DNA of 28,830 bases from the IMG/VR virus record IMGVR_UViG_3300009159_006396, positions 1 to 28,830 of that record. One strand, written 5' to 3'. Both the position numbers and the translations under genes were made by a program. Origin of the DNA: a virus. The notes beneath the pieces are model-generated. The model ran no database searches. It saw only the letters and a list, made by a program, of their open reading frames with translations, and had not been told where the DNA came from. This document shows, piece by piece, positions 3,139 to 14,152 of the stretch; position 1 is the stretch's first letter; every line of letters starts with the position of its first letter.

Positions 3139-3738
3139 ATGAACCTACAATTTTATAAGGGAAATGCAAAAGTAACTGGAACCGCTTGCTCTTTTCAGAC
3201 AAAGGGAACCTCTTTGTTTGTCAACTTCATCAAGCAGCACTCTTGGAATGAAGCGAAGAAGCTTGGGTCTTTTCGTGAGAACGCTAAGAACCCAGAGAAG
3301 ACTACTGTCTTAAAGTTCAATGCGGTAGAAGCCGCAGGTATGGTAGACGCAATTGATAGAAACGCAGAATACAAGTTCTATCACACTGCTCCTAATTCAA
3401 ACGCGATGGGCAAGTTTTGTCCTTATCTAAGGGACAACGCTCAGATTGGGTTTTCTTTTAATGCCACCAAGGAGCAAAAGGGAGATACTGTTAACAAGGT
3501 AAGTTTCTTGATTGGATTTACTTTTGCAGAATCTATACTAGTAAAGACTTTCCTTTTGGAGTTCATTAGGAATTCTTTCTATCCTCAAGATGATGTCGCT
3601 GCACCTGCTCCAAAAGAAGCTCAACAGGAAGAGTATCCGGCAAGGGCAGCTTATAGTAAAATCCAACTAAATCAATCTGCTGTCCAACCTGCTGCTCAGA
3701 CTGAAGCAGAAGCTCAAGCAGAAGAACTCGTATTCTAA
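3139..3738 (+). CDS. Candidate single-stranded DNA-binding protein (SSB-like)
   Basis: 199 residues. Residues 1-148 look like a compact alpha/beta domain with no motif I can name firmly. Residues 149-189 are a Pro/Ala/Gln-rich linker, and the protein ends in an acidic tail with a final Phe (EAEAQAEELVF). A globular domain plus disordered linker plus acidic tail ending in Phe is the layout of bacterial SSB and phage T7 gp2.5, where the tail recruits replication proteins. Its place directly after polymerase and exonuclease fits. The function is inferred from architecture and context; I cannot assign a specific SSB family. It begins 20 bases after the terminator and has no strong Shine-Dalgarno sequence. 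Its stop codon overlaps the ATG of the glycosyltransferase by one base (TAATG), so the two are likely coupled. Confidence 0.55.
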   Translation: MNLQFYKGNAKVTGTACSFQTKGTSLFVNFIKQHSWNEAKKLGSFRENAKNPEKTTVLKFNAVEAAGMVDAIDRNAEYKFYHTAPNSNAMGKFCPYLRDNAQIGFSFNATKEQKGDTVNKVSFLIGFTFAESILVKTFLLEFIRNSFYPQDDVAAPAPKEAQQEEYPARAAYSKIQLNQSAVQPAAQTEAEAQAEELVF

Positions 3739-5645
3739 TGCGAAAGAAAAAGATAGTAATTCAAACGGATTGGTGCCTCGCTAAAACTGGATTCGGTAGG
3801 GCGGCGAAGGAACTAGTCTCTTACCTATATAACACGGGTAAGTATGATATTATCCATTATTGCGGGGGAACCCAAGTGGGTTCTCCCGTTTTATCCAAGA
3901 CTCCTTGGAAGAGTCTTGGGAGTATCCCTACCGATCAAAACGAGGTCAATAGAATTAATGCCGATCAAACTCTTGCAAGAGATGTTTCTTATGGGTCTTA
4001 TTATATTGATCAAGTAATCAAAGAAGAGAAGCCTGATGTTTGGATTGGCGCACAAGACCCTTGGGCGTTCACTCAATACTATAACAAACATTGGTATAAG
4101 AACATCACTTCTCTGCTTTGGGTGACTCTTGATTCTTTGCCCATTTATGAAGAGGCGATTAATCAAGCTAAAAAGTCTTCTCAGTATTGGATTTGGAGTG
4201 AATTTGCTACAAATGAAATGCACAAAATTGGTATCAATAATGCCAAAACTGTACATGGCCCAGTAAATCATTCTAAATTTAATCATTTAGGAGCAGAGAA
4301 GAAGAAGCAGTTAAAGGCTAATTTTGGGCTTTCTGATTCTTTTATTGTTGGTTTCGTATTTAGAAATCAACTTCGTAAGTCTGTACCAAATCTATTAGAA
4401 GGATTTAGAGACTTTGTTAAAAATAATCCCGATGTTAAAAATGCAAAGTTGCTATTGCATACTCATTGGGGAGAAGGCTGGGACATTCATAAGCTTGCTG
4501 ATGAATACAAGATAGACAGAAAAGATATCCAGACGACTTATGTCTGCAATAAATGTAAAAATTACTTTATCTCGCATTTTCAAGGTCAAGAATTAGGCTG
4601 TCCAGTATGCAAGTCTGAGAAGAGTTGCTCAACTACCAACACTGGATTCGGTGTATCCGAAGAGCAGCTATGCGAAGTTTATAATTTGATGGATGTGTAT
4701 TGCCACCCATTTACTAGCGGTGGTCAAGAAATTCCAATTCAGGAAGCTAAGTATTGCGAATTACTAACTCTCGTCACTAATTATAGCTGCGGCGAAGACA
4801 TGTGCCATCCTGACGCTGCGTCTATTCCTTTGGAATGGTCAGAGTATAGAGAGCATGGAACGCAATTCAGAAAGGCTTCGACATACCCTTCTTCTATTGC
4901 CAAGCAGCTATATCGCGCCTACAAGATGTCTGACCTAGAGAAGAGACAGTTTGGACAAAAGGCGAGGAAATGGGCTATAGAGAATTATTCTGTTCCTGTT
5001 ATTGGAAAGATGTTTGAGCAATATATTGATTCTATTCCATTTACCACTTACGATTTCTCTTTAAAGGAAGAAGAAAAAGATCCCAATGCAGCTATTCCAA
5101 ATATAACTGACAATGGAGAATGGTTGATCTTCATGTATCACAACATTCTGAAGATGAAACAGGTGGATCAGAATGAAGATGGATACAAGCATTGGATGGA
5201 AAAGCTTTCTAAAGGAGAAACTCGACAGAATGTTGAAAATTATTTCCGTCAAGTAGCATCACAAGAAAATCAAAAGAATAGAAAAGTAGATTTTGAAGAT
5301 ATTTTAGATCCTACTGATAAAGGAAAGCGCATCTTGTTCGTTATGCCTGAAAGTATTGGAGATATTTATCTCTGCACCTCTCTTCTTGAGTCAATTAAAG
5401 AGACTTATCCTGATCATAATTTGTATTTTGCCACTAAGAAAGAGTACTTCTCAGTTCTTGAGGGCAATCCATGCATCCATAGAATACTAGAATATATCCC
5501 TCAAATGGATAGTTTACTGTGGCTTGAAGGACACGGCAACCATCAAGGTTATTTTGAAATAGCATTTCTTCCCCATATAGGGACACAAAAGATGCTTAAT
5601 TATCTTCACAACGGCAAAGATAAGATCGCATTCGATATTAAATAA
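3738..5645 (+). CDS. Multidomain glycosyltransferase: GT4 with zinc ribbon, DUF4214-like, N-terminal half of GT9
   Basis: Residues 1-435 form a GT-B-fold GT4-type glycosyltransferase: an N-terminal TGFGRAAKEL segment (17-26) and the nucleotide-sugar signature SGGQEIPIQEAK (327-338), in which the first Glu of the usual EX7E motif is replaced by Gly and the second is E336. Between them, C270-x2-C273 and C288-x2-C291 form a zinc-ribbon-like insertion. Residues about 460-510 (MYHNIL ... GYKHWMEKL) resemble a DUF4214 segment, a module found in some glycosyltransferases. Residues 528-635 (RILFVMPESIGDIYLCTSLLESI) match the N-terminal half of a GT9/heptosyltransferase domain, which then stops; the other half is encoded by the next gene. 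Donor and acceptor sugars cannot be read from sequence. Possible targets are phage DNA, virion proteins or host surface glycans. Confidence 0.85.
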   Translation: MRKKKIVIQTDWCLAKTGFGRAAKELVSYLYNTGKYDIIHYCGGTQVGSPVLSKTPWKSLGSIPTDQNEVNRINADQTLARDVSYGSYYIDQVIKEEKPDVWIGAQDPWAFTQYYNKHWYKNITSLLWVTLDSLPIYEEAINQAKKSSQYWIWSEFATNEMHKIGINNAKTVHGPVNHSKFNHLGAEKKKQLKANFGLSDSFIVGFVFRNQLRKSVPNLLEGFRDFVKNNPDVKNAKLLLHTHWGEGWDIHKLADEYKIDRKDIQTTYVCNKCKNYFISHFQGQELGCPVCKSEKSCSTTNTGFGVSEEQLCEVYNLMDVYCHPFTSGGQEIPIQEAKYCELLTLVTNYSCGEDMCHPDAASIPLEWSEYREHGTQFRKASTYPSSIAKQLYRAYKMSDLEKRQFGQKARKWAIENYSVPVIGKMFEQYIDSIPFTTYDFSLKEEEKDPNAAIPNITDNGEWLIFMYHNILKMKQVDQNEDGYKHWMEKLSKGETRQNVENYFRQVASQENQKNRKVDFEDILDPTDKGKRILFVMPESIGDIYLCTSLLESIKETYPDHNLYFATKKEYFSVLEGNPCIHRILEYIPQMDSLLWLEGHGNHQGYFEIAFLPHIGTQKMLNYLHNGKDKIAFDIK

Positions 5646-5646
5646 T

Positions 5647-6819
5647 ATGCACCTTTTAGAACAATATTCTCTAGCTTCTGGAGTCAAGATTAAGAAGCCA
5701 TATATTTACGAAAAGTTTTTCCCAGTAACTGCCGAAAAGTATATCACTTTCCATCCAAGTTCAAAACCTTCGAAGACTTACGATTACTGGCAAGAAGTAA
5801 TAAATATCATTTCTCCTATTTTAAATAGTAAAGGTATTAAAATTATTCAGCTTGGGCAGGAAAAAGAAAAGGTTTATACCGGCGTTGTGAGCTTAGTGGG
5901 ATTCACTAATATAAACCAAACTGCTTTTATTTTAAGAGACTGTTTGCTGCACTTTGGTGCAGATAGTTTTCCTACTCATATCGCTTCTGGATATAATAAA
6001 AAAATTGTAGCTCTATATTCTAATAATTACGTTAACTGCGTAAAGCCTTTCTTTGGAAATCCCAAGGATCACATTCTGCTTGAGCCTAAAAGAAATAGTA
6101 AACCAACTTTTTCTTTTGAAGAAAATCCCAAGACGATTAACTCTATTAAACCAGAAACAATTGCAGGAAACATCTTAAATCTTTTAGAGATTCCCCATTC
6201 GAACTCAATTCAAACTCTTTATTTCGGCACTGAATACAATAACATGAGATTAGAAATGGTGCCTAATCAAATAGTAAATCCAACTCAATTTAATTCTAAC
6301 AATATCGTAGTTAGAATGGATTTGCAACACGATGAAAAATTCTTAAACGAGCAATTACAAGTCTGTCAATGTTTCATTATGACAGATAAACCTATTGATT
6401 CAAATCTCATTTTAAACAATCAAAAGAATATCGGACGAATCTTTTATGAAATTAAAGAAAATAGCAGCCTAGAGTTCGTTGATTTTCTTGCTCATAAAAA
6501 TATTTCTTATCAACTATTTACTTATTTACAGGGAGACAAGCTTGAACAAGCGAAGCTTAAGTATCTTGATCAAGAAATAATTGTAGAAATGCCAACTAAT
6601 TTAAAGCAAAAGACTGGAATTGAATATACTTTAAATGCTTTCTACAAGTCTAATAAGAGAATAATTAGTAATGGTAAAATTTATTTAAGCGAATCTTCTC
6701 TCAAGAATGGCATGGAAGCGAAGCAGGTTGCCGAACCAGTCATTGACTGCCCAGAGTTTTGGAAAGAAGCAGAGAGTTTTTGGATTTTTAGAGTTGACAA
6801 GTCGCCGGTTGCCGCATAG
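5647..6819 (+). CDS. GT9-type glycosyltransferase C-terminal half with unrecognised C-terminal domain
   Basis: 390 residues starting one base after the preceding stop (TAATATG). Residues about 30-182 match the C-terminal Rossmann half of GT9/heptosyltransferases: FHPSSKPSKTYDYW, then IIQLG, LVGFTNINQTAFILRDC and FGADSFPTHIASGY (103-116), the last corresponding to the family's conserved D-x-G-P-x-H-x-A nucleotide-sugar-binding segment. The N-terminal half of the fold ends the preceding protein, so the two products may fold together, or one ancestral gene was split. Residues about 188-390 are not recognised. The frame stays open upstream of the ATG for at least 12 codons into the preceding gene, consistent with a former fusion, a +1 frameshift or a sequencing error at the junction. 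Family call firm, independent function unsure. Confidence 0.75.
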   Translation: MHLLEQYSLASGVKIKKPYIYEKFFPVTAEKYITFHPSSKPSKTYDYWQEVINIISPILNSKGIKIIQLGQEKEKVYTGVVSLVGFTNINQTAFILRDCLLHFGADSFPTHIASGYNKKIVALYSNNYVNCVKPFFGNPKDHILLEPKRNSKPTFSFEENPKTINSIKPETIAGNILNLLEIPHSNSIQTLYFGTEYNNMRLEMVPNQIVNPTQFNSNNIVVRMDLQHDEKFLNEQLQVCQCFIMTDKPIDSNLILNNQKNIGRIFYEIKENSSLEFVDFLAHKNISYQLFTYLQGDKLEQAKLKYLDQEIIVEMPTNLKQKTGIEYTLNAFYKSNKRIISNGKIYLSESSLKNGMEAKQVAEPVIDCPEFWKEAESFWIFRVDKSPVAA

Positions 6820-6828
6820 TATACCTAT

Positions 6829-7527
6829 GTGAATACCGTAAAGAAACTTGTTCGTTCCTCTGATGGTCTCATTGAAGGTGTGGAATACCACTTTAATGAT
6901 GACGGCTCTATTAACTGGCGCAAAATGATCAAGCCAGAGTTCCTTGTCCCAAATAGGGATAAGACCAATGAAACTGATGTCACCAAACTAGAAGATAAAG
7001 ATCTACTTATTCTTCTCGCTGGAATTAAATATGTAGCTCAACTTAGAGGATTCTTCTATGTTGATTACACCGTAACCTCTCCAAGTTCAGACTATGTAGT
7101 GGCGGTTTGCAAAATAGAGTGGATCGCAAACTATGAGACACAAGGAAATTCGATAGCCTTCTCTTCTATTGGCGATGCTTCTCCCGGTAATACGAAAGAC
7201 TTTGCTCGTCACTTCTTGGGGCCGATTGCCGAAAACAGAGCATTCATCCGCTGCGTTCGAAATTTCTTAAAGATTAACATTGTAGGTCAAGACGAAATCG
7301 GCAAGTCAAAGAATAACGTTGTCGATGACTCTGCTGAGTCTTCGGCTGTATTTGAGCCTCATGCCATTCTTGAAAAAGTAATGAAAGATAAAAGCGTTAC
7401 TTTTGCAAAATTAAAAGAACGCCTTATCAAAGAAGGTTACGTTAACGCAGACTCGTTTATGTCAATAGCCGACATTCCAAAGATTAAAATCTTTGAAATG
7501 ATTGAGAGAATTCAAAAAGCTAAGTGA
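6829..7527 (+). CDS. Candidate single-strand annealing protein (Rad52/Sak-like)
   Basis: 232 residues, GTG start. The only other in-frame choice nearby is an ATG at 6925, and the preceding in-frame codon run ends at the upstream TAG, so GTG is preferred; no clear ribosome binding site is seen. Residues about 65-155 hold a beta-rich region (FYVDYTVTS ... VCKIEW) followed by AENRAFIRCVRNFLKINI (134-151). This resembles the AExRAxxRAxRN helix of phage Rad52/Sak-type annealing proteins that pair complementary single strands. A variable linker (158-175) leads to a helical C-terminal segment. Position beside polymerase, exonuclease and an SSB-like gene agrees with a recombination-dependent replication role. 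The family assignment rests on short motif resemblance only; another DNA-metabolism protein is possible. It ends with no gap against the convergent operon. Confidence 0.45.
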   Translation: MNTVKKLVRSSDGLIEGVEYHFNDDGSINWRKMIKPEFLVPNRDKTNETDVTKLEDKDLLILLAGIKYVAQLRGFFYVDYTVTSPSSDYVVAVCKIEWIANYETQGNSIAFSSIGDASPGNTKDFARHFLGPIAENRAFIRCVRNFLKINIVGQDEIGKSKNNVVDDSAESSAVFEPHAILEKVMKDKSVTFAKLKERLIKEGYVNADSFMSIADIPKIKIFEMIERIQKAK

Positions 7528-10500
7528 TTAAGAAACCCCAATTCCGGGGGAGCTAGACCCTGCGCCAACAGATCCAGCAAACACCTTATTCGCTGAACCA
7601 ACGCTTCCCAATCCTTTAAACAAGGAAGCTTCTGAATTTATACTTTCAATTCTTAATTTTAGATATTTAGAATCAACTGGGTCTATTGGGTTTACATAAT
7701 CTCCTGTGGGAGGAACTTTTGTAGAGAAATCGACTCTTAAGTTCCTTCCATTCTTGGAAGGCTTTACTGTAGTAATTAAGAACCTCTTTCCATTATATCC
7801 AGTAGGGTAAAGGACAGAAGTCTTAAATTGTAAATCTATATCATTAAAATCAGCATCATCCGTTGAATATATTTGATCGTATCTGACGGTGAAGCTACTT
7901 TCTCCAACGTAAGCGTTTCCAGTTAAAACGATGTCTGCTATTCTGGCGAAGTTATTTGGATTTTGTATATTTAAGAAGGGTTGATCAGTCGTCTCGTAAA
8001 CTGCACCATAGTTGGCTAATCTCAAGTCTAATTTTTCACCAACTACAAAACCATTATCCAACGGGAAAGTTGTTGAAACAGTATAATAGCCATAATATTT
8101 AGAACCATCTCCACTCTGAGTTGCGAAGTTGTTTCCAGAGAAAATAAGGTTAGCTGAAGGATTTCTTAATATAAATCCAGAAGATGGATTTGGAACGATA
8201 GCATTATTTCCTTGCCAAAAATCTTGGTAATTACCAATTGGATTAACAAGTATATTCACTCCTGTAACTTGCCCTACATAAGGAGGCATGAACGAAACGA
8301 TAGCATCTATAGTAGGGACTCCTGCTCCGCCATTATTTAAACCAATGCTAACAGGAGAGAATGTATAACCAGCGCCTCCACTTACGATATTATAACCAGT
8401 AATGATGCCTCCGGGCTGATTGTAAAAATCTATTTTTGCTCGTTTTTTATTGAATTGAAATGTCGTTGCGAAGTCTTCTATTATTTGTCCATTAACTTTA
8501 GTAAAGAAGTTGACTCCTGTTAGGTATCTTACTCCTTCTCCATTAAAAGATATAACAGACCCATCCCAACCACTTACTTGAGTGCTTCCATCTAATCTAT
8601 AAGTTAAATTATTATTTAAATAAGCATCATTAACAGATATAAAAGGAATATAATTAAAGTTTCCAGTTACAGGATACTCTTCTCCCAAGTAAGTTTGTAG
8701 ATAGAACATTCCAGAAATTGGCCTTACGTCTTCAACGTCTTTACCGTGCATACCCTTTCCTGCCATTGATGGAGGATAGAATTTTAATTTACTATAATCT
8801 TTATAGATAACGCTACTACTCAAGTCTCTAGCGTCAGTCACTACTGAGATCCCAGATTTAAAATTTGCAGCTAAATAAGGGAAGTTTGGAGTTATTGTTC
8901 CAGAAGCGCCTCTTGCAAGAGTTGTTACGCCTTCAAATCTAATTCCTGTTACATAATTAAGATTAGCTCCAGTTAAGGTAATGAGTGATCGATATGTGCC
9001 AGTTGTAAGATTTAAAGCAGATGTCGAAATAGAAGGAGGTCTAATCGTTATTGTCTTATAAAGGTTGTCATCATCAAAGCTATTTCTTTGAAAGAAAATT
9101 TGACCACTGCCGATATAACCATCTAATGATATGGAGCTAAATCTTGCGTTAGTATCACCTATTCCAATAGCATCAGAACCGCTAAGAAGAAGTTCTAAAT
9201 CAGGAATTTGAGCAGAAGGATAATCGATAATATTTAAATTTCCAGATAATACACTATACCCGGTATAAGGTTGAGACATTCCAGACAGTGTTGAAATATC
9301 AATAGTTTGCATTCCTTGACAAATTAAATATTGACCTGTTTTATTCGTCAAGTTATTGAATCCGCTAATATAAAGGTCTCTTGTTTGAAAGGCGTGAGCA
9401 TTGATTCCTGTAATAATTATTCCATCTTGTGTCCTGTAGCTGTTAGCGTTTGAACCAGAGATAGTTGTACTTGGGGTAAACGAAGGGGAAAACCCTTTTA
9501 TTTCGACAGTAGTACCAGATCTTAAAAACCTAAACGCCCCTCGTTTTACGTCTCTTGGAACCGAAACCAAAGCTCCTGTTGGAACGGGCGGAACAACATG
9601 TGGATATTTTATTATTTCATTATTGAATCCAACACCATAAATTTCAAAACCACTTAAGTTATTGCCTGACAAACTTATTTGATCTCCAAAATAAGCAGAA
9701 TTAGGAGTAATTTTTAAAATACTAGGATTTATAAAATTAAAGGAATCCGTTGTGGTAACTCTACTACTTCCGTTTACAACTATAGGGCCATCTTCAATAT
9801 CGAAAACGTCGTAAGGAATATAAAAACTTAAACCATTAATAGTTTTTGCTCCGAAACTAGTAATTTTTCTAAACGCACCACCTTGCCTACCCAACTCTAC
9901 AGAAGTCACCGTATTGAAAAATTTACCAGACATATTAATTAAAGTGCCCACAGTTCCAGTAGTCGGAGAGAAGCCGTCAACAATTAGAGTACCTGTTTTT
10001 ATAGAAAGTCCACTTGGGTATGTATAGACATAGTAATCTGAATTAATAATTAAACTTTCTCCGCTCTGAGCTAAATCAGGAACTGTAAATGTAAATGCTT
10101 GATCAAATTCAGACCCACTTCTAAATATATTGTAATTACTAACTCCATAACCGCCTATAGTTATAGAATTTACATAATAAATATTATTTCCATATCCAGT
10201 AGCTGGCTGACCTTGCTCTAATAAAGATGGATATATTCCCGTAATTACAGGTGTCTTTAAAAATGTAAAGATCTTATCAAAACCCCCAGTAATTGTTGAG
10301 TTAAAGTTGTTTAATACAGGGTTACTTTTCCTAATCGAAGACAAGTTTGGAGTGGTTACGCTTAAATATCCGAAGCTCCTAACGGTGTCGTCAAATAAAC
10401 CTGCATTAGCATGTATTAAAATTTCAGTATTAATATTATTTTTCGCTCTTCTGATTGGAACAAAATTTGAATACTGATAAGGATCTTCTCTTACTACTCT

Positions 10501-13071
10501 AATTTCATCTATATACCCACTCCAATATTTGGCCGAAGTATTTGCGTAATCTCTTCCGATATAGATGTCAAATACTGAATTGCTTGCTGCGGGACTCGTT
10601 GTCCCTATTCCAACATTTCTATCATTATTTAAACTAAAATCAAGATTAGAATTGACAGCAATATCATAAGGCGATTGGTCTCCAGTTAAGTGAATTGGAA
10701 GGCCATTTAATAATATTTTTCCACTAACTTTATTTTGATTTATATAGCTCTTTGAAATAGACAAATGGTTCCAATCTAATTCATTTATTTGTCCAGAAAA
10801 ATTAGGAGAAAAACCATTCCAATCAATTCCAGATACTATCAACTTGTTGGAAGTGATAAACACATTTAAGCCATTTTGGCTCCCTATTAAATATTTTTTA
10901 TCAGAAGCAGAGAAATTTACTAAGGGTTTAAAATCTAATTCAATTGCAAAACTCTTCCCATAGCTTAAAGGAATATTTGGAGATTGGCCCGTTATTGAAA
11001 ATTTAACATAAGGTCCGGGACTGCCAGAAAATAAGAAGCTTCTGTCATCAAATTTAGAAGTATTATTTTTTATCAGTACAGAATTGGAAACTTCTAATGA
11101 TTTTTGATTTCTGAATGTTGATTGATAAGAATAACTATTTGCATTTTCATTTGCATCGACTACTGAATTAACATCCCCAGTATCTTGAAATAAAAATTGA
11201 GAATCTGGATAAATATTATGCCCAAGAACTTCGATGTTTCCACCAATATAATGCTCAAAAGTTGATAGATTTTTAATTACAGGGGAACCTCTTATAATTT
11301 CAAAATTTTTGAATATGAAATTCCTATCCCCTGTATTCTGAAGAGTGATATCGTAACATCCAGCGTCTGCGTTTGTGCCAGTAAAAGTTAAACTAGTGTT
11401 ACTATTATTTTTTACAAAAGCAGAAATAGGAAAACTCTTGTTATGAATTCCATAATTATAGTCTTCTACATAACCAGAAATGTCTTGTATCTTTGATAAT
11501 TTATTTCTGTTCCCTCTATAATCATAATCAGAATAATTCCCTTGAAGCAGCAGAACAGTATTCGGAATATCGAACATCCCAGAACCAGTGAATACTTGAT
11601 TAATGCTGTTATATAATCCTACGCCTTTAACAATTCTAAAATCTTCTATATATCCAGAAAATGGATTAACCCCATAAGTAGCATAAGAACCTACATTATG
11701 AGTTCCAATGAATAATCCGCTACCTGCTGTGATACTATAAGGAGTTGCCGCTGACACTGTTGCGAAACTCTGTCTATTGTTACCACTGATGGCATAGAAA
11801 GTATCGCCATTAGCAGATGTTCTAGAAATTAATACTTTAGTCCATTGATTGGCCGGAATTAAAGAAGTAGCTATATTAAATTTTGCAGTATTGCTTGCAA
11901 AAAAAGTCCAATTAGTACTTCCAGCATCTTTATAAAAATAAAAACCATTTCCGTCCCACCCTTGGTCTTGGAACATATCAATTCTTGGGGTTGAAGTGTA
12001 CGGCAATGGATTGACTAAAAATTCAATAGTAAACGGGCCTGTTCCAAAACTAAAGTCTCCTCCAGAAGGAGAAGGTATCTGCAAGTAAGAACTTCCGCTG
12101 AATAATAAAGACCTTCCAAATATGCCAACTTGAGAACTCCTAACTCCGCTATTTAAAATTGTCTTAGGCTGTCTATAATTTAATCCGCTTAAAATAATAC
12201 CTGTGACGTTTCCAAAATTTTTTCCTATAGCTATATTAGACTCACCAGAATTTAAATAATAATTTAAAGCATTAAACACCACAGGAGCTTTAAGGACCGT
12301 AATTTGATTTTTAGAAGTAAAAGAGGTATTATCTTTAGAATTTATTGTTACGAATCCTGCATTAGCGTTTGAAGGGACTATTCCAGAAATCACATCTCCT
12401 GCCCCTGTGAAAAGAGCGGTTACAAAACCAGTGATATTATCATCTACAGAAGTAGTGAAATTTACAGGAAAATAAGATTGGTCAACATAGGCTATATTAA
12501 AATTTTTACCAGAAATCTTTAATAAATCTCCTTCATAAGGAAGATTATCGCTAAATCCACTAATAAAAATTCTACCAAAAAAATCAAACGAACTAGAAAC
12601 GCGCACTATTCCAGTATTATTATATCCACTTATTGTAATTGGACCTGTCGTGTATCCGCTTGGGATCTTAACTAATAAAACGCCACTATCTGGTTGATAA
12701 GAAATATTTGTACCAGTAATATTATTAAATGCTACATATCGAACTCCACTTAATGACTTCCCACTAATAGCTACAAATTCTCCAACTTCTTGAGTTGAAG
12801 GAATAACCGCATCTAATCTTGGAATTGGAAAAAAATCAACCCCACTAACATACATTGGAGCAGAGAGCGTAGCTCCAGTAATAAAATAAAAATTAGCTTG
12901 CCCTAAAATTATATTTTCTGGGACGTTGAACTCTATGTATTCAGGAGAGCCATCATAGTAAGAAAAATCAATAAATCCAGCACCGGGGACTTGCAAGCCA
13001 CTAACGGCATAAAGACCTGCGCCCGTGACGCGCATTCTTTGATTTATTAAACCTGTATTGTAACTTGGCAT
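7528..13071 (-). CDS. Giant IPT/TIG-repeat structural protein with two LamG lectin-like domains
   Basis: 1847 residues, almost entirely beta-type. IPT/TIG (Ig-like) units recur, for example near 84-165, 168-255, 940-1015, 1028-1115, 1116-1190 and 1345-1430, each beginning with a P-x-I/F-x-x-x-x-P-type strand and a GxxxxISG turn (VGEFVAISGKSLSGV, VGTLINMSGKFFNTV, FGDQISLSGNNLSGF). Two concanavalin A/LamG-like domains interrupt them: about 310-500 (SGYIEDFRIVKGVGLY at 472-487) and about 675-875 (SGYIDEIRVV at 851-860). A GGAGYTFSP motif lies at 1565-1573. No signal peptide or membrane helix is seen. The ATG has a GAAGGA ribosome binding site and is one base from the upstream stop. It is the last gene of a tail-type operon, so a virion decoration, tail fibre or adhesion role is inferred; no enzymatic motif was seen. 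Confidence 0.8.
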   Translation of the reverse strand: MPSYNTGLINQRMRVTGAGLYAVSGLQVPGAGFIDFSYYDGSPEYIEFNVPENIILGQANFYFITGATLSAPMYVSGVDFFPIPRLDAVIPSTQEVGEFVAISGKSLSGVRYVAFNNITGTNISYQPDSGVLLVKIPSGYTTGPITISGYNNTGIVRVSSSFDFFGRIFISGFSDNLPYEGDLLKISGKNFNIAYVDQSYFPVNFTTSVDDNITGFVTALFTGAGDVISGIVPSNANAGFVTINSKDNTSFTSKNQITVLKAPVVFNALNYYLNSGESNIAIGKNFGNVTGIILSGLNYRQPKTILNSGVRSSQVGIFGRSLLFSGSSYLQIPSPSGGDFSFGTGPFTIEFLVNPLPYTSTPRIDMFQDQGWDGNGFYFYKDAGSTNWTFFASNTAKFNIATSLIPANQWTKVLISRTSANGDTFYAISGNNRQSFATVSAATPYSITAGSGLFIGTHNVGSYATYGVNPFSGYIEDFRIVKGVGLYNSINQVFTGSGMFDIPNTVLLLQGNYSDYDYRGNRNKLSKIQDISGYVEDYNYGIHNKSFPISAFVKNNSNTSLTFTGTNADAGCYDITLQNTGDRNFIFKNFEIIRGSPVIKNLSTFEHYIGGNIEVLGHNIYPDSQFLFQDTGDVNSVVDANENANSYSYQSTFRNQKSLEVSNSVLIKNNTSKFDDRSFLFSGSPGPYVKFSITGQSPNIPLSYGKSFAIELDFKPLVNFSASDKKYLIGSQNGLNVFITSNKLIVSGIDWNGFSPNFSGQINELDWNHLSISKSYINQNKVSGKILLNGLPIHLTGDQSPYDIAVNSNLDFSLNNDRNVGIGTTSPAASNSVFDIYIGRDYANTSAKYWSGYIDEIRVVREDPYQYSNFVPIRRAKNNINTEILIHANAGLFDDTVRSFGYLSVTTPNLSSIRKSNPVLNNFNSTITGGFDKIFTFLKTPVITGIYPSLLEQGQPATGYGNNIYYVNSITIGGYGVSNYNIFRSGSEFDQAFTFTVPDLAQSGESLIINSDYYVYTYPSGLSIKTGTLIVDGFSPTTGTVGTLINMSGKFFNTVTSVELGRQGGAFRKITSFGAKTINGLSFYIPYDVFDIEDGPIVVNGSSRVTTTDSFNFINPSILKITPNSAYFGDQISLSGNNLSGFEIYGVGFNNEIIKYPHVVPPVPTGALVSVPRDVKRGAFRFLRSGTTVEIKGFSPSFTPSTTISGSNANSYRTQDGIIITGINAHAFQTRDLYISGFNNLTNKTGQYLICQGMQTIDISTLSGMSQPYTGYSVLSGNLNIIDYPSAQIPDLELLLSGSDAIGIGDTNARFSSISLDGYIGSGQIFFQRNSFDDDNLYKTITIRPPSISTSALNLTTGTYRSLITLTGANLNYVTGIRFEGVTTLARGASGTITPNFPYLAANFKSGISVVTDARDLSSSVIYKDYSKLKFYPPSMAGKGMHGKDVEDVRPISGMFYLQTYLGEEYPVTGNFNYIPFISVNDAYLNNNLTYRLDGSTQVSGWDGSVISFNGEGVRYLTGVNFFTKVNGQIIEDFATTFQFNKKRAKIDFYNQPGGIITGYNIVSGGAGYTFSPVSIGLNNGGAGVPTIDAIVSFMPPYVGQVTGVNILVNPIGNYQDFWQGNNAIVPNPSSGFILRNPSANLIFSGNNFATQSGDGSKYYGYYTVSTTFPLDNGFVVGEKLDLRLANYGAVYETTDQPFLNIQNPNNFARIADIVLTGNAYVGESSFTVRYDQIYSTDDADFNDIDLQFKTSVLYPTGYNGKRFLITTVKPSKNGRNLRVDFSTKVPPTGDYVNPIDPVDSKYLKLRIESINSEASLFKGLGSVGSANKVFAGSVGAGSSSPGIGVS
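7536..7550 (-). terminator. Weak candidate terminator at the end of the minus-strand operon
   Basis: On the minus strand a CCCC/GGGG stem with a loop of 6-7 bases lies inside the last codons of the 1847-residue gene and is followed by TTTCTTAA. The stem is only four GC pairs and the T-run is interrupted. It is listed because no other stop signal is visible where the two convergent gene blocks meet. Confidence 0.2.
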
Positions 13072-13072
13072 A

Positions 13073-14152
13073 TTATAGTCCTTCGAAAAATTTAGATAAT
13101 ATTATTTCGTTTTTATTCACGCTTGTTTTAAAGTTAAATATCGAAGAAGAACTCGTCTCTTCTGTATCTATTAGAATAGCAGCAGCACCTTTTAAAGAGG
13201 TAGGGGCTACGGCAGTAATTAAAGAAGTAGAAACCGGGTTAAAAGAAGTAGCCTCAGTATTACCAAAAAATATTTTTTTAACATTAATAAAATTACTGCC
13301 ATTTATAGTAACTGTCCCTCCGGGCAAAATAACTCTTGGCGTGAAATCGGTTATTACTGGTTTAAAATGTGAGAAATCTTGTTTTAATGTAAACTCTGAT
13401 CTTGCATAACCTTGAGTCTCTACAGAAGTTCTCTTTGAAGAGACTATCCCCGCAAAAGAAAGCGTATCTAAAGGCGCTGTTCCTGTTTGCAAAGAAATAG
13501 AAAAAGTACAAGGAACGCCAGAATAGGGAAGCGATACATTAAAATTATCTAATTCAAAAGAAAGAGACTGAGATCGCTTTCCTAAATACGCTCTACCACT
13601 TTGATCAAAAGTAGTTGCGCCTTCTTTATTATACTTCTGAACCTCTCTCTGGTATTGATAACTAAAATTAGTAAAATTATAACCATTTGAATCAAAAGGC
13701 GTTCCATCTAAGTTGCCTGATAAATAAAAACTTGAGAAATTTAAAGGAGTGAATTCTGGCCTGTTAATAGGAGCAGTCGCAGAGAAGGCTCCTTTTAAAG
13801 GCTCGAAAACTTTAACTTCTACATCAACTTTAGCCAAAGAATCAGGAGATCCTTTTATAGAATAGTTTGTAATGTAGCCATTTTGGAAATACAAGCCGCA
13901 AAAATTTCCAGAAATTCCTTGTTCTGAATTAGCCCCTAATAGATATTCTTTTACGAAGTCTTTGCCTGTTAAGTAATAAGAAATTGAAAAACTAGTATCT
14001 ACTGTATCTTCGGCTATATAAGAATAAGAATTCTTTTTAAATTCTTCGTTGTAGACAGGAGTGTTAGATGAATCAAGAGACATGTTAACATTAGAGGCGA
14101 GGATATCAACGCCACTAAAGCTAAACGTACAATTTTTATAATTAAAAAACAT
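13073..14152 (-). CDS. Tail-tube-like protein paralog C with C-terminal IPT/TIG domain
   Basis: 359 residues. Residues 1-125 and about 130-262 look like two related beta-rich halves. The segment GLYFQNGYITNYSIKGSPDSLAKVDVEV (86-113) aligns by eye with FGFQSGYLSSYS ... PTVRANFEIY in the first gene of this operon. Residues about 263-343 are a clear IPT/TIG Ig-like domain (PVITDFTPRVILPGGTVTINGSNF ...). Two tube-like halves plus an Ig-like domain recall the layout of the phage T5 tail-tube protein pb6, so a tube or distal-tail role is inferred, not shown. The start is supported by an AAGGAG ribosome binding site 7-8 bases upstream. The stop is one base from the ATG of the giant TIG protein, so they are coupled. 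Confidence 0.6.
   Translation of the reverse strand: MFFNYKNCTFSFSGVDILASNVNMSLDSSNTPVYNEEFKKNSYSYIAEDTVDTSFSISYYLTGKDFVKEYLLGANSEQGISGNFCGLYFQNGYITNYSIKGSPDSLAKVDVEVKVFEPLKGAFSATAPINRPEFTPLNFSSFYLSGNLDGTPFDSNGYNFTNFSYQYQREVQKYNKEGATTFDQSGRAYLGKRSQSLSFELDNFNVSLPYSGVPCTFSISLQTGTAPLDTLSFAGIVSSKRTSVETQGYARSEFTLKQDFSHFKPVITDFTPRVILPGGTVTINGSNFINVKKIFFGNTEATSFNPVSTSLITAVAPTSLKGAAAILIDTEETSSSSIFNFKTSVNKNEIILSKFFEGL

Follow-up and report, generated by a model that had tools for sequence, protein, structure and literature searches.

Genes and features of the locus

The analysed window, the 28,830-base virus record IMGVR_UViG_3300009159_006396, contains on its plus strand two consecutive genes, P0001 and P0002. 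The first is predicted to encode a GT4-like glycosyltransferase that bears a four-cysteine ribbon and ends in one half of a GT9-type domain, and the second to provide the other half. The features considered below are the following.

3139..3738, plus strand: upstream neighbour of 199 amino acids, possibly Whirly-like and ssDNA-binding (StWhy2 match)
3738..5645, plus strand: P0001, a 635-amino-acid GT4-like glycosyltransferase fused to a GT9 N-terminal half (phrog_2170, fold matches)
4335..5048, plus strand: GT4-like domain, second Rossmann half on the donor side, residues about 200-437 (alignment, model and fold matches)
4539..4637, plus strand: ribbon insertion, approximate extent, residues about 268-300 (about 30 alignment columns, modelled strands)
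4545..4610, plus strand: ribbon core CxxC-x14-CxxC, C270 to C291 (invariant in 243/243 family sequences covering the site)
5055..5312, plus strand: variable helical linker, DUF4214-like, residues about 440-525 (PF13946)
5319..5642, plus strand: GT9-type domain, N-terminal half, residues about 528-635 (TIGR02201, Foldseek)
5647..6819, plus strand: P0002, a separate gene with the GT9 C-terminal half and a further C-terminal domain (PF01075)
6829..7527, plus strand: downstream neighbour P0003, 232 amino acids (present in 232/232 testable loci)

The P0001 family and its sampling

P0001 belongs to a large, phage-specific family, with at least 598 matching stretches in one scan. From a first scan of viral contigs the best 80 of 589 relatives were retained; one of its six search patterns held two of the ribbon cysteines, which is a mild bias. 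The queries of three later scans began downstream of the ribbon, and their listed matches were used. The combined set comprises at least 290 loci and 250 distinct sequences among the matches listed, and the counts on the GT9 split, made over 281 loci, are without de-duplication. A scan with L212, a ribbon-less relative, gave seven loci, from which the GT4 model could read five distinct sequences.

A tblastn search of P0001 against 50,697 phage records found no member at E 1e-5, and a PDB sequence search gave no match. In BFVD, only glycosyltransferase-type proteins (8-18 percent identity) were among the matches listed. A bacterial housekeeping origin was rejected as far as sampled, as a search by alignment among 296 genomes from a single phylum gave one match, to the centre genome itself; that match lies in the L087 contig, which is probably of phage origin.

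The GT4-like domain of P0001

The N-terminal part of P0001 is, on its predicted structure, a GT4-like GT-B enzyme. The protein matches the phage glycosyltransferase family phrog_2170 of PHROGs (E 7e-21), whereas the Pfam GT4 models match weakly and all below their cut-offs (PF00534, 21.5 bits against 26.4). The AlphaFold model, built from a 37-sequence alignment, has a mean pLDDT of 85.6, and the leading solved folds for residues 1-437 include BshA (3mbo; Z 32.5, rmsd 3.2 over 359 residues). Chlorovirus B736L (3oy2), which Foldseek ranked top, superimposes with Z 31.1 and rmsd 3.2 over 370 residues. The GT4-type GT-B fold is shared between P0001, B736L and the proteins of Synechococcus phages S-CBS4 and S-EIV1, and these three relatives of P0001 have neither the ribbon nor the GT9 half. 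The S-CBS4 protein matches B736L with E 2e-20, is about 21 percent identical to P0001 and has an intact EX7E motif. No clear membrane anchor was seen in P0001, in which no 19-residue segment has a mean KD hydropathy above 1.45.

The EX7E motif is typical of GT4 enzymes. Its second glutamate is kept in all 250 distinct sequences of the P0001 family, whereas the first is glycine in 246 of them and glutamate in the remaining four; this change runs throughout the ribbon family, the motif lying at residues 328-336 of P0001. The first glutamate is retained, in an EGFG-type context, in the segments compared of all five readable ribbon-less sequences of the L212 scan. Of the other outgroup sequences compared, S-EIV1 has glycine and the rest, S-CBS4 among them, have glutamate. 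Because this residue is missing we call P0001 GT4-like and not GT4. The ribbon family may on this account differ in donor-site chemistry, and the activity of the GT4 half may, from its motif, be altered, reduced or lost.

A four-cysteine ribbon in the donor-side Rossmann half

The preliminary description of this DNA had noted C270, C273, C288 and C291 at 4545-4610, and they lie exactly there, in the open reading frame 3738-5645 of the plus strand (codons 4545-4547, 4554-4556, 4599-4601 and 4608-4610). It had interpreted them as a zinc-ribbon-like insertion in a GT4 glycosyltransferase, and this reading is borne out for a GT4-like enzyme, since the four cysteines are conserved in 243/243 sequences and the insertion is missing from the nearest ribbon-less relatives. 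As in a zinc ribbon, short strands lie between the two CxxC knuckles of the segment. In composition shuffles of P0001 the CxxC..CxxC pattern arose 39 times in 20000, and a chance motif was rejected on the grounds of the 243/243 conservation.

All four cysteines are retained in 81/81 sequences of the first set (the best 80 of 589 relatives plus the window). Among the matches listed they occur in 243 of the 250 distinct sequences, which are all 243 of those that cover the ribbon site. Two of the other seven (L122 and L291) are cut by the contig end ahead of the site, and five (L094, L095, L210, L212 and L213) are distant relatives without the insertion. Contigs binned into MAGs, with 44-53 percent identity, have the four cysteines in 12/12 cases. 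Other cysteines of P0001 are also kept, namely C322 (247/250), C351 (245/250) and C356 (210/250).

The fold prediction proposed earlier places the ribbon with confidence: the AlphaFold blocks covering residues 261-300 have a pLDDT of 92-94, with modelled strands at 264-270, 276-280 and 297-299. The site itself had been given as between the two Rossmann halves, which is not the case. The insertion lies inside the second half (residues about 200-437), between the strand I264-T267 and a helix starting near E308. The GT4 proteins of S-CBS4 and S-EIV1, when aligned with it, lack it cleanly: about 30 columns are empty in them from the end of an I-x-T-T strand to an L-x-x-x-Y-N-x-x-D-V helix. The ribbon is likewise absent from all five readable sequences of the L212 scan; its ribbon-less relatives are distant phage GT4 proteins. 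In PimA the loop corresponding to the ribbon site presumably contacts the nucleotide base.

Beyond the cysteines and a small framework (T267, Y268, T299), all near-invariant, the ribbon is variable. The mean entropy of the whole segment is 1.55 bits, against 1.04 and 1.12 bits in the flanking GT4 core. It is slightly basic, with a mean net charge of +0.8 compared with -0.4 expected from the whole protein. Pfam searches of the ribbon gave weak matches to several ribbon families, including those of transposase IS91, TFIIB and RNA polymerase; the best E-value among 12 members was 0.0008, and all the matches of the first member tested were below cut-off.

A GT9-type domain divided between two genes

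The GT4-like domain is followed by the linker, for which PF13946 is over cut-off in L067 (E 3.2e-5) and below it in the window, and which is missing in 24 family sequences that form a subclade. The approximately 105 residues after it resemble the start of a heptosyltransferase. NCBIfam TIGR02201 aligns with its positions 1-54 to P0001 residues 531-584 (E 0.0044) and with positions 240-298 to P0002 residues 78-136 (E 6.9e-5), both far below the model cut-off. P0002 residues 29-156 match positions 104-238 of PF01075 with E 2.2e-7 and 30.9 bits (cut-off 22). We name the domain split, GT9-type, because its N-half is found at the end of another protein. The preliminary description had not noticed this division.

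Of 20 large related contigs, 18 contain a GT9 family match over cut-off; this PF01075 match starts at profile position 95-106 (15/18) or 165-172 (3/18) and never in the N-terminal part. Among the matches listed, a C-half gene lies downstream in 281 of 290 loci, and in none of the 281 where both halves were found are they on one chain. The nine loci without a C-half are six ribbon-less outgroup loci, two cut by the contig end (L084 and L093) and L204, where none was detected in the 3,991 nt downstream.

The arrangement of the two genes varies: they overlap in 139 of the 281 loci, are at most 60 nt apart in 109 and are separated by another gene in 33. An assembly frameshift as the origin of the split was rejected, as overlap, gap or inserted gene vary across these loci. 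The gene found between the GT9 halves, in 28 distinct cases, is of the Anp1 (GT62-type) glycosyltransferase kind in nine and has a DUF6165-like start in 17, with two others. Pfam was applied to the L020 and L012 members (7910-8551 and 7917-8294; E 4.9e-10 and 1.9e-12), and the others were assigned by similar sequence starts. The GT9 N-half is present in 239/239 full-length ribbon-bearing sequences and in 0/4 full-length ribbon-less ones, a co-occurrence that may reflect a single common descent.

In L016, L023 and L070 the frames of the two halves lie just a TAA codon and no more than 12 nt apart. The frames being nearly contiguous, the TAA was read as Gln and the L016 halves were folded as one chain. 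The joined model has a mean pLDDT of 85.5 with a low-confidence joint at about 93-140. Its C-half (residues 133-301) superimposes on WaaF (1psw) with Z 17.7 and rmsd 2.7 A over 154 residues, on WaaC with Z 16.4 and on TibC with Z 15.3, and its assignment as the GT9 donor-side domain is supported by the predicted structure. The top Foldseek hits of the joined halves are GT9 structures, with about 350 columns aligned, but the overall superposition is poor (TM about 0.26, rmsd 12-14 A), the modelled placement of the halves being unlike that in GT9 structures; in the alignment used for this model the C-half rows were misplaced across their first ~40 residues. The N-half is a putative GT9 N-domain, by its weak TIGR02201 match together with the long Foldseek alignment.

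The last ~200 residues of the L016 chain, corresponding to the C-terminal part of P0002 (6200-6816 in the window), form a confidently modelled alpha/beta domain that lies outside the span of the listed solved-structure matches.

Gene neighbourhood

By a strict rule on open frames, the gene for the 199-amino-acid protein adjoins P0001 in 221 of the 231 distinct loci that could be tested. In six of the ten exceptions (L083, L092, L179, L190, L191 and L192) it overlaps the open frame, in three (L088, L195 and L206) it lies about 0.5-1.2 kb upstream, and L093 has no match. The sole lead for this family in the PDB is StWhy2, a Whirly protein, at a marginal E of 0.18. One of 18 members tested against PHROGs matched phrog_36406 (E 0.003) and the others had no match. 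Many members carry an acidic tail. On the other side, P0003 is highly conserved, and none of 16 members matched PHROGs.

Genes for an exonuclease and DNA polymerase III lie upstream of the locus, which is thus in a replication-gene setting, and lambda-like tail genes lie further downstream in the window. In L024 (1233-2622 and 2838-5420) the N-terminal, exonuclease and polymerase parts of the DNA polymerase III module are encoded apart from one another. An 1847-amino-acid protein encoded at 7528-13071 on the minus strand has no PHROG match and adjoins a TIG-domain protein (13073-14152).

Comparison with known glycosyltransferases

The C-half shares its fold and PF01075 match with WaaF and WaaC; unlike in these enzymes, the GT9 domain is here shared out between two genes, and its N-half is joined to a different glycosyltransferase. 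The division of a GT-B enzyme into two proteins, one for each domain, is described for Alg13/Alg14 and EpsE/EpsF (PMC8993221). These differ in that they are GT1 and distantly GT28 enzymes and that Alg14 is membrane-associated, and the sections of that paper on them mention no fusion to a second enzyme.

The closest likeness to the ribbon is in TibC (4rap), a bacterial autotransporter heptosyltransferase of the GT-B kind whose C-lobe contains an inserted Cys4 metal finger, according to the sections concerned of PMC4358343. The iron finger is described there as capping the C-lobe and driving dimerisation, and substrate contact or recognition is reported. Its cysteines are C339, C342, C358 and C370, compared with CxxC-x14-CxxC in P0001, and it lies within the heptosyltransferase itself, a single polypeptide, whereas here the ribbon is in the GT4-like domain. 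Because of this location, the BAHT/TibC family serves as an analogy only.

Chlorovirus A111/114R is likewise a virus-encoded polypeptide with several glycosyltransferases; it has three other domains and acts on capsid N-glycans, and neither a ribbon nor a split is mentioned in the part of PMC7826918 that describes it. No zinc-ribbon GT4 and no split phage GT9 was found in the literature as covered by titles and abstract openings, a scope outside which most subscription papers lie. Every part is of a known kind, and the combination appears to be new.

Possible function

We favour, at a probability of roughly 0.45, a soluble glycosyltransferase of aquatic tailed phages, of two proteins and two activities, in which the ribbon would be both a structural metal knuckle and a docking surface. 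In this reading the first protein is a GT4-like GT-B enzyme whose Cys4 metal ribbon has grown from a loop of the donor-side Rossmann half; it carries the GT9 acceptor-side N-half on a variable linker, and the second protein supplies the donor-side C-half. The GT9 halves would pair into a single active site, as in Alg13/Alg14, and the complex would add two sugars one after the other. The ribbon would bind zinc or iron, stiffen the donor loop and, much as the TibC iron finger does, dock either a subunit or the acceptor. As acceptor, a protein of the virion or of the host is most likely, and plausible from the TibC precedent, the rivals being DNA and a host surface glycan. In favour of this reading are the invariant ribbon and its tie to the GT9 half, the GT4 and GT9 fold matches, the constant separation of the GT9 halves, TibC among the fold matches and the lack of a clear membrane anchor. 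Against it speak the glycine in the EX7E motif, the modelled placement of the GT9 halves, locus L204 and a possible single descent of ribbon and GT9 half, and the replication-gene setting would fit a DNA acceptor equally.

It is somewhat unlikely that the ribbon does nothing but stabilise the fold, as a knuckle fixed by common descent with no role in recognition or docking, an explanation compatible with any acceptor. The near-invariance of little besides the cysteines and the framework residues agrees with such a knuckle, but the perfect retention of the ribbon across so deep a family (identities down to 44 percent) and its exclusive co-occurrence with the GT9 half speak against it, although single descent would also explain both.

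We consider it unlikely that the enzyme modifies the host surface, extending LPS or capsule early in infection so that rival phages are blocked. GT9 is the LPS heptosyltransferase family, with WaaF and WaaC as the closest solved folds, and glycosyltransferase clusters of large cyanophages are interpreted as host-surface modifiers in the relevant part of PMC7824862. However, P0001 lacks a membrane anchor segment, and the sugar-nucleotide transferase family PF00483 is over cut-off in only two of the 20 contigs, which would be neutral if host donors were used.

A role on DNA seems quite improbable. The preliminary description had suggested that the ribbon might recognise nucleic acid, and it could accordingly lead the enzyme to phage DNA, where a disaccharide added to a modified base by the two activities would protect the genome as in T4-like phages. 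The position of the locus between a possible ssDNA-binding gene and P0003, near DNA polymerase III and exonuclease genes, and the weak matches of the ribbon to those of transposase IS91, TFIIB and RNA polymerase would fit. Against it, the ribbon is only slightly basic and is variable outside its framework, and PF00303 (thymidylate synthase/hydroxymethylase) is over cut-off in none of the 20 contigs (2.13 Mb, in records that may be fragments; one sub-threshold match of 14.4 bits). Tet_JBP was also found in none of the 20, which says little, as the control genomes were likewise without a match. Very doubtful, finally, is a replication-coupled machine of two subunits in which the ribbon would dock the GT4-GT9 composite on DNA or a replication protein and a disaccharide would be placed onto nascent phage DNA by a base-modification route without a known hydroxymethylase.

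Implications

The locus unites a consistently divided glycosyltransferase, a whole one and a metal knuckle in one enzyme, and keeps it at a constant position amid replication genes. If the GT9 halves pair, the family would be a natural system for testing in what ways GT-B enzymes can be divided and joined to one another. The identity of the acceptor would tell whether these aquatic phages sugar-coat their DNA, their virions or their hosts.
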